Assembly: GCF_026210795.1 (NCBI RefSeq)
Contig: NC_089440.1
Location: 3,906,001-3,970,000 of the forward strand
DNA: 64,000 nt
Source of the DNA: Rhizophagus irregularis
Lineage: Eukaryota > Glomeromycota > Glomeromycetes > Glomerales > Glomeraceae
Direction: 5' to 3'
The translations under genes and the position numbers were made by a program. The notes beneath the pieces are model-generated. The model worked only from the letters and a program-made list of their open reading frames with translations. It ran no database searches and was not told the DNA's origin. Of this stretch, positions 29,214-59,830 are shown piece after piece; positions within the stretch are counted from its first letter, which is position 1; every line of letters begins with the position of its first letter.

Positions 29214-29440
29214 TCGTATAATCCTTCTAATGATTATGCAACTAAGTGTTGCTCTCAATAATATAAAAATTCCTTAACAGAAATTGGTGATGATATTCTT
29301 GATTATTAGTTTCATCTGATGAGTTAGCTATCAAAGAATTATTCAACCATGTTCAAGATTACTTAATCAAAAAACAAAAAATGAGTGTGAAGTGGTTACT
29401 CATTTCTTGGAAGAAGAAAGGTCAAATCTACACATTAAGT
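29214..29440 (+). pseudogene. BTB/POZ-domain gene relic
   Basis: After a possible acceptor (TTTACAG) the plus strand reads GDDILD, then, after a break, SDELAIKELFNHVQDYLIKK, resembling the end of a BTB domain and the start of the BACK region in the Kelch/TLD-type BTB proteins abundant in Rhizophagus. Stops interrupt the upstream part and the homology ends at the 299 bp array. A shorter match to the HVQDYLI stretch lies at 46733-46820, and the 29214-29275 segment recurs diverged at about 47830-47880. Confidence 0.5.
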
Positions 29441-30330
29441 GGTACGTATAAATTATAGTTTGCCGGATGGACGTATGAGTAGGTGCGCACTGCAGGGTTC
29501 ACGCCTCGCATGAATCATGCTTGGTGCATCCAAGGTTACAGCTGAAAGTCTTCCGGATGGTATTCTGTTATGGTCAGAATCGTTGATGATTTGCCACTCC
29601 AGTTGTATAGGTTTGGTGGACTGTCAACGATGACATACGTATACTAGTGGCTGCAGACACTTATGAATGTTTGTTAATTATAGGTAATGAAGATAATGAC
29701 GGTGTCTGAAAGCAGAATGAGATTAAGAACACATTAAGTGGTACGTATAAATTATAGTTTGCCGGATGGACGTATGAGTAGGTGCGCACCGCAGGGTTCA
29801 CGCCTCGCATGAATCATGCTTGGTGCATCCAAGGTTACAGCTGAAAGTCTTCCGGATGGTATTCTGTTATGGTCAGAATCGTTGATGATTTGCCACTCCA
29901 GTTGTTTAGGTTTGGTGGACTGTCAACGATGACATACGTATACTAGTGGCTGCAGACACTTATGAATGTTTGTTAATTATAGGTAATGAAGATAATGACG
30001 GTGTCTGAAAGCAGAATGAGATTAAGAACACATTAAGTGGTACGTATAAATTATAGTTTGCCGGATGGACGTATGAGTAGGTGCGCACCGCAGGGTTCAC
30101 GCCTCGCATGAATCATGCTTGGTGCATCCAAGGTTACAGCTGAAAGTCTTCCGGATGGTATTCTGTTATGGTCAGAATCGTTGATGATTTGCCACTCCAG
30201 TTGTATAGGTTTGGTGGACTGTCAACGATGACATACGTATACTAGTGGCTGCAGACACTTATGAATGTTTGTTGATTATAGGTAAAAGATAATGACGGTG
30301 TCTGAAAGCAGAAAGAGACTAAGTATAAGT
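29431..30330. repeat. three tandem copies of a 299 bp unit
   Basis: Copies begin at 29431, 29730 and 30029 with CACATTAAGTGGTACGTATA. They differ by only a few substitutions (for example a C/T near GGTGCGCAC and TATAGG versus TTTAGG) and a short deletion at the end of copy 3. The unit is much richer in G+C than its surroundings. It contains CCGGATGG twice, a 10 bp palindrome GGTGCGCACC (copies 2 and 3), GCATGAATCATGC as a small stem, and CATACGTATAC. There is no long frame through the unit. It is recently amplified or homogenised; origin unknown. Confidence 0.9.
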
Positions 30331-45686: not shown

Positions 45687-46624
45687 GGGGGGAAGAAGGG
45701 AAAGGGAAAACGAAGGGGAAAGGGAAAACGAAGGGGAAGGGGAACACAAAAGGGAAAGGGAATGCGAAAGGAAAGGGGAAAACGAAGGGGAAGGGGAAAT
45801 AAAGGGAAAGGGGAAACGAAGGGGGAAACGAAGGGGAAAGGGAAAACGAAGGGGAAAGGGAAAACGAAGGGGAAAGGGAAACGAAGGGGAAAGGGGAAAA
45901 CGAAGGGGAAAGGGGAAAACGAAGGGGAAAGGGGAAAACGAAGGGGAAAGGGGAAAACGAAGGGGAAAGGGGAAAACGAAGGGGAAAGGGGAAAACGAAG
46001 GGGAAAGGGGAAAACGAAGGGGAAAGGGGAAAACGAAGGGGAAAGGGGAAAACGAAGGGGAAAAGGGGAAAACGAAGGGAAAGGGGAAACGAAGGGGGAA
46101 ACGAAGGGGAAAGGGAAAACGAAGGGGAAAGGGGAAAACGAAGGGGAAAGGGGAAACGAAGGGGAAACGAAGGGGAAAGGGAAACGAAGGGGAAAGGGAA
46201 AACGAAGGAGAAAGGGGAAAACGAAGGGAAAGGGGAAAACGAAGGAAAAGGGGAAAACGAAGGGAAAGGGGAAAACGAAGGGAAAGGGGAAACGAAGGGG
46301 GAAACGAAGGGGAAAGGGAAAACGAAGGGGAAAGGGAAACGAAGGGGAAAGGGAAACGAAGGGGAAAGGGAAACGAAGGGGAAAGGGAAACGAAGGAAAA
46401 GGAAACGAAGGGAAAAGGGGAAAACGAAGGGAAAGGGGAAAACGAAGGGGAAGGGAAAACGAAGGGGAAGGGGAAAACGAAGGGGAAGGGGAAAACGAAG
46501 GGGAAGGGGAAAACGAAGGGGAAGGGAAAGGAAACACGAAGGGGAAATGGAAAACGAAAGGGAAGGGGAAACGAACAGGAAAGGGGAAAGGGGAAACGAA
46601 AAATGAAGGGAAAAGGGAAAGAGA
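45687..46624 (+). repeat. polypurine satellite (G/A only apart from CGAA spacers)
   Basis: About 940 bp of the plus strand made almost entirely of G and A, in 17-19 bp units such as AAAACGAAGGGGAAAGGGG. The most regular part is about 45885-46075. Variants drop or add single A or G residues. Long frames exist in both directions (Lys/Gly/Arg/Glu repeats on plus, Phe/Pro/Ser repeats on minus), but these follow from the absence of stop codons in the repeat and are not genes. The strong strand asymmetry and G runs could allow triplex or G-quadruplex structure. Confidence 0.95.
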
Positions 46625-50219: not shown

Positions 50220-51139
50220 TTATTTAACAACAATATGTACGCTTGCTATATGTTTTAACATGGCAAAAACCTGAGCAAAATGTGAACCACAATAAGGGCA
50301 TTTATCTTCAATTTCATCACAATCCTATGAAAAAAAAAATTATATGTGAATAAAAAGATAGAACATTGCAACATAAAAGCAATAGAATCAATATATACCC
50401 GTGAAACAATTTTCTCAATTATTGATATGTTTAAAGTAAAACCTGGTAAAGTGTCGCCCCCATCTAAATCTTCCCATTTACAATTATTACGAATAATTTC
50501 ATTATTATTCTTCTTATAAGTACAGATCATGCTGTTCTTTGCATCAATTAACCATCCTAGCTCTACAGACGTACCCATTGCAAAGTAATCATTTTTGAAT
50601 CTATTATCAACTTCATTAAGTATTTGATCACTTGTACTATTTACAACCTCAGCAACAAATATGGGAGTAAAAGGTCGGCCATGCAAAGTCCAAAGTTGTT
50701 TTGCATTAAGTGAGTTGTAAGTATCTGCAGATATAAAAGCAACGTGTGGTGCTCGGATTTTTTTTGGAGCAGTGGTACTAAAATTAAAAGCCCCTTGAGA
50801 TGTAGTAACAACACCATTTTGGCAGGTATCAATATTCCAGTTACCAAGTTGTCTGGCAATCTCATGTACAACAGCTTCATGAGCAATTGGAGTTTGAGGA
50901 AGAGAGATTAGCCTTCCATTTTCAAAATTAGTACGAACTTTAAGATATTTGTTAATTTGTTCAAGTTCCTCTGGAGTGTAAGTATGGGCGAGATTCAATT
51001 TGTTCAAGTCTAATGAAAGAGAGAATTAGTATTAAAAATGTTTGGTGCAAAAGTCAGAATTATTTCTTAATTGTTTCTTAATCACAAAAAATCAAAAAAT
51101 TACTTTACCAAGATTTTCAGGTTCTTTATTTTTTGACAT
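50220..51139 (-). CDS. Uma2-fold (restriction endonuclease-like) protein with C-terminal C2H2 finger (248 aa, three exons)
   Basis: Exons: 51139-51109, 51009-50399 and 50324-50220, all GT...AG, giving 249 codons with stop. Residues about 20-200 match the Uma2/DUF820 family, a PD-(D/E)xK nuclease fold. The core reads IRAPHVAFIS, then FTPIFVAEVVNSTSD, then YFAMGTSVELGWLIDAKNSM. The metal-binding Asp usual in a PDV motif is His here, and the downstream catalytic Lys is not obvious, so cleavage activity may be lost. The last exon encodes one classical C2H2 finger, CPYCGSHFAQVFAMLKHIAS followed by VH (C-x2-C-x12-H-x4-H), which could add DNA or RNA binding. Uma2 proteins are mostly bacterial and are expanded in Rhizophagus. 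The role is unknown; domesticated transposon function is one possibility. Confidence 0.85.
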
Positions 51140-56673: not shown

Positions 56674-57536
56674 AGTTTGTTTTAGGCATTTTCACAACTA
56701 TATTAACTCTGTTGACATAATTTTTACATTGGAACACTCTTGGAACTGACTCTAAAAGATAGAAATATTTTAATAATTATTTAATTATATTTATTTATGA
56801 AATTATGAGTTGTATTTTGTAACAAAAAATGTAAAATATAAATAAAGGTAATAAAGAGTACAAAATTTTATTTACTATCTATTCTAGAATATATTACTAT
56901 TTGTGTATAAAATACGAATATTAAAACATAAAGTTTGCTGGCTAATAGATGACAAATTGTTAATTGTTTCACTAAAAAATTACTTTGAGGAGTTGAATTT
57001 TGTTTTCTTCACTCCCTTTTTTAAAAATAAAAATAACATCGCGAAATTTTTTCTAAGACAAATGTTACACAAAACAATCTTTATCGATGGTCCAGGATAA
57101 GCATCTAGACGACTAGACCATGGTCCAGGAAAGGACGCTCGTTTGAATTCCTATAATGTAAATGTTAGTAAGTAAAATGTACTTACCGTTATTTAAAAAA
57201 GTTTGGTCAGTAATCATAGATTTTAGATGTAAATGTCATCTTCACTTCGAATAATTATTAAATGATTTCATTTAGAATATATTTATTATTATATTATATT
57301 TACACATTTACTAAAATATTCGGTTAAATCTGCGGAAATCGGAACCTCAAATTGTGATTTTGATCAGTTAACAATTTCCTATTATAATAATTATACGCGA
57401 CGCGTAACATACGATCAATATAATCAATATAATTATGAGTCATCTTTTATGGAAAAATTTTTATGATGTAAATATTAGTCACAATTTATAAAGTATAAAA
57501 ACTATAAAAACCCTCTATCCACTTTCACTTATTCAC
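56674..57536. other. intergenic with a possible minus-strand exon
   Basis: Minus-strand 57145-56985 is open and follows an intron-like sequence: donor GGTAAGTACA near 57187, branch-like TTACTAAC and acceptor ATTATAG at about 57146. It then reads EFKRASFPGPWSSRLDAYPG. A match to the intron end and exon start (ATTATAGGAATTCAAAC) occurs near 60612-60660. No family is recognised. The rest is A+T-rich. Confidence 0.3.
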
Positions 57537-58097: not shown

Positions 58098-58715
58098 GCA
58101 TTATTTCTTTTCGTCCCTCAGGAAATTATTCATTTTCATTACCCACTCTTTCATCTTTTCCAAACTCCCGATCCGCAATGTGTTTAGCGCCTCCGTTCTG
58201 ATGTGTTCCCATTTTATATACGTAGAAGCTGTTGTATTAATCTCTTCCAGTTCTATCAGCTTCTCCTTTAGACCTTCGGATGCATCATCAGTCACTTTGT
58301 TTCGTATGTGCTTTATTTTCCCGTCCACGCGATACTCCTTTATGACTTCAATGGCTTCCTTCGGCGCAATGTTATTTCATTTCAGAGGCATTTTGGTCGT
58401 GACTTCTACTTTGTTGGCTTTGTCCTCTGAATCCAAATCTGAGCTCGAGTCTCCTCCTACTCGCCATTTGCTAATCACGTCCACTATTACCTCTTGGTTA
58501 TTGAGGTTCGGTTTTGATATCTACTGGCCGCCATTTTTCTAACTTTATGTATATTTTATCTGTCTGCAGTGTAGCAATATTTACCGGAAGACTATCTAGT
58601 GGTGTCGTAGCAGGCACTTTCGCCTTCTCCCTTTCTTTCTTCGTCTTGAAATTCCGCACCTTCCATATCATCTCCGCATTACACTGCCGTTTGTCTAAGG
58701 AAATATTTAAGTAGT
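58098..58715 (-). pseudogene. decayed gene of unknown family
   Basis: Less A+T-rich than its surroundings. From 58710 the minus strand reads MIWKVRNFKTKKEREKAKV and TPLDSLPVNIATLQTDKIYI, then shifts frame near 58510 to VDVISKWRVGGDSSSDLDSE. It passes one in-frame stop near 58375 and continues APKEAIEVIKEYRVDGKIKH and LNTLRIGSLEKMKEWVMKMN to a stop at 58101. The charged, helical character suggests a transposon-encoded or DNA-binding protein, but I cannot name it. The 156-codon plus frame is its shadow. Confidence 0.45.
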
Positions 58716-58731
58716 CTTTCGGGTATTTAAT

Positions 58732-59830
58732 GGAGCAGCATGATGCTATGCATGGGTGGGAGCATAGAGTGCTTACATTGTAAGTCTGTGAGTACCAGCT
58801 TTTGCTGCAGTCTCACAGTAGGGCTGGTTGGTTGTGGTACGGCATGGTGCTATGCGTAATTTTCATGGGAGGAGCATAGTGCGCTTACTTTTAGTAAGTT
58901 CGCGGGTACCAGTTTTTGCTGCAGTCCTGCGATAGGGCCGAAGGTAAGTGCACTTTTTTGTTATTTTTCAAGTTTTTTTTTTTTTTTTATGATTTTTTTA
59001 TTTCTTCATTATTTTTAGCTTGGGGTATTTTATCGGAGCAGCATGATGCTATGCGTTGGGTGGGAGCATAGCGTGCTTACATTGTAAGTCTGTGAGTACC
59101 AGCTTTTGCTGCAGTCTCACAGTAGGGCTGGTTGGTTGTGGTACGGCATGGTGCTATGCGTAATTTTCATGGGAGGAGCATAGTGCGCTTACTTTTAGTA
59201 AGTTCGCGGGTACCAGTTTTTGCTGCAGTCCTGCGATAGGGCCGAAGGTAAGTGCACTTTTTTGTTATTTTTCAGTTTTTATTTTTTATTTTTATGATTT
59301 TTTTTATTTCTTCATTATTTTTAGCTTTGGGTATTTTATTGGAGCAGCATGATGCTATGCGTTGGGTGGGAGCATAGTGTGCTTACTTTGTAAGCCTGTG
59401 AGTACCAGCTTTTGCTGCAGTCTTACAGTAGGGCTGGTTGGGAACTTGGATCGGTATAGTACTATGCGAGGGTTGGAGCATAGACGCTTACTTTTAGTAA
59501 GCTCGTGGGTACCAGTTTTTGCTGCAGTCCTGCGATAGGACCGAAGGTAAGTGCACTTTTTGTTATTTTTCAGTTTTTTTTTATTTTTTTATGATTTTTT
59601 TATTTCTTTATTATTTTTAGCTTTGGGTATCTTTATTGGAGCAGCATGATGCTATGCGTTGGGTGGGAGCATAGCGTGCTTACTTTGTAAGCCTGTGAGT
59701 ACCAGCTTTTGCTGTAGTCTCATAGTAGGGCTGGTTGGTTGTGGTACGGCATGGTGCTATGCGTAATTTTCATGGGAGGAGCATAGTGCGCTTCTTAGGA
59801 AGTCCCTTGTGGTAGGGCCGTAATACTAAA
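58732..59830 (+). repeat. tandem array of dimeric hairpin units (~300 bp, four copies)
   Basis: Copies start at 58732, 59035, 59341 and 59638 with GGAGCAGCATGATGCTATGC. Each copy holds two related halves (a and b). Each half has the same series of stems: CTATGC/GCATAG, CTTAC/GTAAG and an outer stem (CTGTGAG/CTCACAG in a, TCGCGGG/CCTGCGA in b) around CAGC-TTTT-GCTG. Copies are separated by T-rich linkers of about 75 bp beginning GTAAGTGCAC and ending TTTTTAG, which look like introns. The last half is truncated. Substitutions in the outer stem mostly keep pairing through G-U or compensation, consistent with a folded RNA. No protein frame runs through it. Confidence 0.85.

Follow-up and report, generated by a model that had tools for sequence, protein, structure and literature searches.

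A 64,000-nt stretch of the Rhizophagus irregularis genome, hereafter the window, contains a tandem array of eight related modules that is best interpreted as one of the arrays of an apparently undescribed fungal family of non-coding genes, which would be transcribed by RNA polymerase II (Pol II) and spliced into multivalent cloverleaf RNAs. Judging from the sequence, the probability of this interpretation is estimated at roughly 0.6. The four-way cloverleaf fold itself is well supported, and the array displays a feature of a tandem-repeat structured long non-coding RNA (lncRNA), namely, a repeated fold held through sequence change on one strand.

The array in the window

A tandem repeat with a period of 304 bp and 3.6 copies was called at 58716–59793 of the window, and a covariance model run over the whole window (E up to 0.1) detected eight modules, all within 58731–59823 on the + strand, in the order a-b, a-b, a-b, a-c. 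The repeat call and the mapped module positions confirm the four ~300-bp units, each with two related halves, that were described in the initial annotation, and the stems named there are found in the sequence. The outer stem given for half b, TCGCGGG/CCTGCGA, holds for copies 1 and 2 but not for copy 3b, which has TCGTGGG/CCTGCGA. The single-base changes to G-U pairs in copies 3a and 4a are present as stated, and the stem in the truncated last half indeed reads CTTC-TTAG-GAAG. All three linkers of the array run from GTAAGTGCACTT to TATTTTTAG and are intron-like, as had been claimed. The surroundings of the array are AT-rich, with ~26% GC. The features of the locus are as follows.

57436–57510, + strand: candidate promoter, with TGAGTCA at 57436–57442, TATAAA at 57487 and more TATAAAA at 57494 and 57503, in the same order as in 18 of the 49 loci
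58101–58812, − strand: broken frames akin to those of a family of repeat proteins of ~690 aa, lying antisense over the upstream part and not a component of the RNA
58721–58730, + strand: conserved GGGTATTT stretch directly 5' of the first module, where the strong conservation of the family starts
58731–58831, + strand: module a, copy 1 (cloverleaf P1–P4)
58837–58940, + strand: module b, copy 1 (c-type at the 5' side and b-type at the 3' side, with P1 still paired)
58944–59018, + strand: intron-like linker 1, GTAAGT...TTTTTAG, 75 nt
59034–59135, + strand: module a, copy 2
59141–59244, + strand: module b, copy 2 (c/b chimera like copy 1)
59248–59324, + strand: intron-like linker 2, 77 nt
59340–59446, + strand: module a, copy 3
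59447–59543, + strand: module b, copy 3 (standard b)
59547–59620, + strand: intron-like linker 3, 74 nt
59637–59738, + strand: module a, copy 4
59738–59823, + strand: terminal module c, the truncated half, a short cloverleaf with P3 = CUUC-UUAG-GAAG

The b copies 1 and 2 are chimeras that combine a 5' part from module c with a 3' part from module b. In these chimeras, the c-type 5' strand of P1, CGGC, faces the 3' strand GCCG (normally ACCG in b), and the closing pairs are retained because the 3' end is GGGCCG rather than the GGACCG of b.

A four-way cloverleaf maintained through sequence change

Each module (~100 nt) can form a four-way cloverleaf that consists of the three hairpins noticed originally and a closing stem, P1. 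The P1 strands are CAGC/GCUG in a, CGGU/ACCG in b and UACGGC/GCCGUA in c; P2 is CUAUGC/GCAUAG with extensions; P3 is GCUUAC/GUAAGC, replaced in c by CUUC/GAAG that mostly closes a UUAG or UUCG loop; P4 comprises 7 bp, an internal loop (UAC/YAGU) and then CAGC/GCUG, reduced in c to CCCU/AGGG. The UUCG and UUAG variants, present in most of the c modules, are presumably YNMG tetraloops.

Pairing was assessed at 27 pairs in 60 modules (59 distinct), of which 27 a and 28 b modules were chosen for diversity and five came from the window. Pairing is possible in 99.3% of the 1586 cells, compared with 94.2 ± 0.3% in shuffles (0 of 500 as high) and 22–42% in slid controls. In the same set, both sides change in 11 of the 27 pairs (5.7 ± 1.4 in shuffles; 1 of 500 as high), and the covariation score reaches 0.295, against 0.186 ± 0.006 in shuffles (0 of 500) and 0.04–0.11 in slid controls; the number of further pair types, 29, shows no excess over the 28.9 in shuffles. 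RNAalifold, with no structure supplied, recovers the same four-way fold with two extra pairs in P2.

The changes within single module types point in the same direction. In P2–P4b, Watson–Crick pairs changed to G-U in 52 events, to A-C in 12 and to other mismatches in 10, and four double changes keep a Watson–Crick pair; for the matching transitions in unpaired columns, the ratio is 49:68 (Fisher P = 1.9e-7 for 52:12). Tolerance of G-U over A-C on the + strand points to a + strand RNA, not to DNA palindromes, and together with pairing beyond that of the shuffles supports the original proposal of a structured RNA on this strand. P1 behaves differently, with pairing broken by 12 single changes, kept as G-U by two and maintained through two double changes. 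One-base length changes occur in the P4 loop and would break a reading frame, which argues against coding.

Other measures are neutral or run the other way. The fold energy of one module is not unusual (z = −0.93), and for a solo abc copy z is −1.66 on the + strand and −4.93 on the − strand, so that energy alone favours the opposite strand. A tree-conditioned G-test of covariation listed nothing with E of 2 or less among the a and b modules; when c was included, the best values, E = 0.06 for a P1 pair and 0.15 for a P4 pair, were not significant, and the structure contains none of the other eight listed pairs. The power of this test is low because the a/b/c split is one old event. Minimum-energy folds of single sequences hold each helix in 68–75 of 78–80 a modules and in 35–43 of 44–45 b modules, and for c they hold P2, P3 and P4 in 14–16 of 36 modules and P1 in 29 of 36. 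Counts over the modules in all of these analyses come from related copies and are not independent, and gene conversion could also keep modules alike. A stem P0 closing the whole RNA (5' GUAY with 3' RUAC) looked suggestive in many loci but was left out of the structure, given C-A mismatches in five loci (L015, L029, L037, L039 and L040) and its absence in others.

A genome-wide family of arrays and dispersed copies

The window region and a single solo copy served as queries against the whole genome (146.7 Mb, 32 contigs). Copies were collected on many contigs, which bears out the expectation of a genome-wide family, and 49 loci were examined, all locus counts being lower bounds ('at least') that refer to the best-scoring candidates. 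These loci include 14 arrays (the window and L009–L021), 29 dispersed abc copies, two odd forms (L022, with abc twice, and L033, with a-c) and four relics with damaged modules (L053–L056), the latter indicating that copies are born and lost. The dispersed copies, some of them incomplete, comprise 24 within L023–L047 plus L049–L052 and L057; L042 has an incomplete c, and L050–L052 are partly decayed.

In a first scan, which did not include the window and yielded 39 loci with 171 modules (82 a, 51 b and 38 c), the first module is a in all 39 loci and the last module is c in 37, with L018 and L042 as the exceptions. Eight arrays (L009–L016) follow the pattern (ab)n and then ac; in L019–L021, ab is succeeded by 4 to 8 a modules and a final c; L017 and L018 combine the (ab)n and the ab plus serial a patterns.

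For 12 chosen paralogue pairs, the module bodies are 97.2% identical (3429/3527), compared with 71.6% (1824/2546) for the upstream 230 bp and 73.2% (1475/2016) for the downstream 200 bp; low values are inflated by the forced global alignment, and individual flanks are in some cases up to 92% identical. In many solo loci the modules are preceded by a pyrimidine-rich stretch, and directly upstream of 12 dispersed copies there is a short piece of a module with GGTAAGT after it. In one subfamily (L025–L027, L029–L032, L034, L036 and L038–L040), pyrimidine-rich repetitive leaders of several hundred bases precede the modules and hold module remnants with splice-like ends; these leaders are perhaps decayed arrays.

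Intron-like linkers and promoter-like signals

The linkers between module blocks, described as intron-like from the window alone, retain this character across the family, with GT...AG ends, a consensus donor and a U-rich acceptor. Among the 42 linkers (56–85 nt) identified by pattern in the arrays and in L022, a search that missed those of L009 and at least one of L017, the donor is GTAAGT in 37, GTAATT in three, GTAATG in one and GTAAGA in one, and the acceptor is TTTTAG in 36, ATTTAG in three and another sequence in three. Given that 170 of the 171 modules align over at least 80% of the query in one piece, the linkers sit between modules and none lies inside a module. These features suggest that the linkers are removed by splicing.

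Upstream of the modules, a recurrent pair of signals suggests transcription of the family from the + strand. Within 1.2 kb upstream of the modules (51,743 bases over the 49 loci), TGASTCA occurs 41 times, at 29 loci, compared with six times, at five loci, within 1.2 kb downstream (52,029 bases), the loci being related and not independent. TATAAA follows within 20–100 bp at 24 of 45 TGASTCA sites found within 1.5 kb, compared with 6 of 45 on the control side, before the site, and this order is seen at 18 of the 49 loci. Runs of five or more T inside 25 of the 28 solo bodies and the absence of a B box (GGTTCRANTC) from all 28 argue against transcription by Pol III. AATAAA or ATTAAA is found downstream of 26 of the 28, which is uninformative in an AT-rich genome.

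The window as a whole contains 12 TGASTCA sites, where shuffling predicts 4.3 and none of 100 shuffles reached 12; TATAAA follows within 20–100 bp at five of the 12, the site of the array included, and precedes none. With this order at five of the 12 sites, the signal may not be special to the array and may belong to promoters of this genome in general.

A possible mode of expression and its implications

In the proposed gene family, a Pol II-type promoter, TGAGTCA followed by TATA, would drive + strand transcription through a pyrimidine-rich leader into the module blocks. Dispersed members would have one block with modules a, b and c, and in array members blocks of ab, or of a by itself, would recur with ~75-nt GT-AG introns between them, a-c being the last block. 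Splicing, which would join AAG to CTTTGGGTA across the linkers, would yield mostly 3 to 11 tandem cloverleaves with a c cap. Every full cloverleaf could offer a partner a G-rich loop on P2 and the same conserved internal loop in P4, in which UAC faces YAGU, so that the number of binding sites would be set by exon duplication. An analogy to tandem-fold lncRNAs, the conservation of the P4 internal loop and the variable number of modules give rise to the idea of a multivalent RNA scaffold or decoy, which is the likeliest action in our view but a guess and, in our estimate, a doubtful one.

The odds seem about even that these loci exemplify a distinct gene organization, poly-cloverleaf RNA genes shaped by exon duplication, in which each exon holds one to three structured domains, introns never interrupt a domain, a special domain closes the series and a gene mostly has 3 to 11 domains. 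If so, such genes would parallel repeat-domain proteins at the level of RNA. To our knowledge, new structured RNA gene families beyond the classical set are rare in eukaryotes, and we know of no description of a family whose exons coincide with RNA folding domains; an open-literature search, within the terms used, returned none. If expressed, the family would provide, within a single organism, a natural series of RNAs bearing the same fold 3 to 11 times, in which RNA multivalency could be tested directly.

Alternative explanations

A SINE-like non-autonomous retroposon, whose folded RNA is copied by the reverse transcriptase of another element and whose arrays are nested or tandem insertions, would account for the scatter of 29 dispersed copies and four relics, and SINEs are reported to be among the newly curated repeats of Rhizophagus irregularis (PMC11075540). 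This origin nevertheless appears unlikely: the B box is missing (0 of 28 solos), T runs interrupt 25 of the 28, and the promoter-like signals lie hundreds of bases upstream, where RNA copying would not carry them. Moreover, the homologous flanks end at places that differ by pair (−1004 to +1914 for L030/L034; −334 to +2005 for L041/L044), which suits segmental duplication, and the retroposon amplification considered in the initial annotation is so far not supported. The modules also do not look like part of the element that adjoins them in the window. The minus-strand frames at 58101–58812, for which Pfam gave no match in the pieces from the window, correspond to a family that is dispersed in the genome and whose frames are as long as 695 aa (686 aa in L048). 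Next to arrays, copies of this repeat protein are short or interrupted by stops (145 aa at most, in L011), and the long open copies, such as that at C16:613897 (686 aa), are absent from the module places among the matches listed. Within these matches, the adjacent frame thus represents another repeat family, and the array was not identified as an ordinary part of a known transposon.

More improbable still are two readings in which there is no independent RNA gene. Palindromic stems, tandem arrangement and AT-rich surroundings, along with the weak + strand fold energy, are what would be expected if the palindromes were protein-binding sites at a transposon end or in satellite DNA, with RNA folding incidental. 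Such DNA-level repeats do not account for the far better tolerance of G-U than of A-C on one strand, the UUCG/UUAG loop variants in most of the c modules or the splice-like linkers that the loci have in common, and no intact transposon gene was found adjoining. Pol II-type signals and intron-like linkers would likewise be present if the modules were a structured UTR or regulatory element of a protein-coding mRNA; among 25 two- or three-module loci (L023–L047), however, a + strand frame of at least 100 aa starting past the modules was found in L039 only, in a scan of 1.7–2.1 kb downstream per locus that short peptides and intron-split frames could escape.

Relation to known RNAs

Rfam 15 gave no match in the window at the gathering score, and in positions 1900–2400 of L024, at E up to 5, a single snoRNA model matched on the other strand with 20.8 bits, against a gathering score of 90. 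Rfam includes hammerhead models, and a hammerhead retrozyme or other ribozyme element, considered as a candidate, has no Rfam support in the window or in L024. Two exact module patterns had no matches in viral contigs, and no homologue beyond this genome was found in that search.

The closest analogues in organization are the roX stem-loops and the Xist A-repeat lncRNAs, in which tandem folded elements lie in one RNA: several similar folds on one Pol II transcript, fit for multivalent binding. Here, by contrast, the repeat unit is a whole cloverleaf on exon-like blocks at ~49 loci, and we know of no sequence relation between the two. Retrozymes and hammerhead viroid-like elements are also small structured RNAs whose units stand in tandem in genomes, but the present family gave no Rfam ribozyme match in the window or L024, its linkers are intron-like and its promoter-like signals lie outside the units. 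SINE retroposons resemble it in their size of a few hundred bases, dispersal and non-coding nature, but in the cloverleaf family no B box was seen in 28 solos and no fixed ends in the pairs compared. The arrangement of three hairpins around a four-way junction, closed by a further stem, recalls tRNA and viral cloverleaf RNAs, from which the modules differ in stem lengths and loops, and no tRNA or other Rfam match was obtained in the window.

Other features of the window

A second tandem repeat, at 29430–30323, consists of a 299-bp unit in three head-to-tail copies (98%) and has relatives at many sites elsewhere in the genome (at least 48 matches, full-length or partial, some with a part-unit beside a unit). 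At 45698–46589, a purine-rich 18-bp unit of the GGGAAAGGGGAAAACGAAG type is repeated about 50 times and forms a strongly skewed minisatellite. A minus-strand frame at 50255–51025 matches Uma2 (PF05685, E = 1.2e-14), a family of putative restriction endonucleases, here in a eukaryotic genome, and the window also holds a kinase and an ABC transporter.
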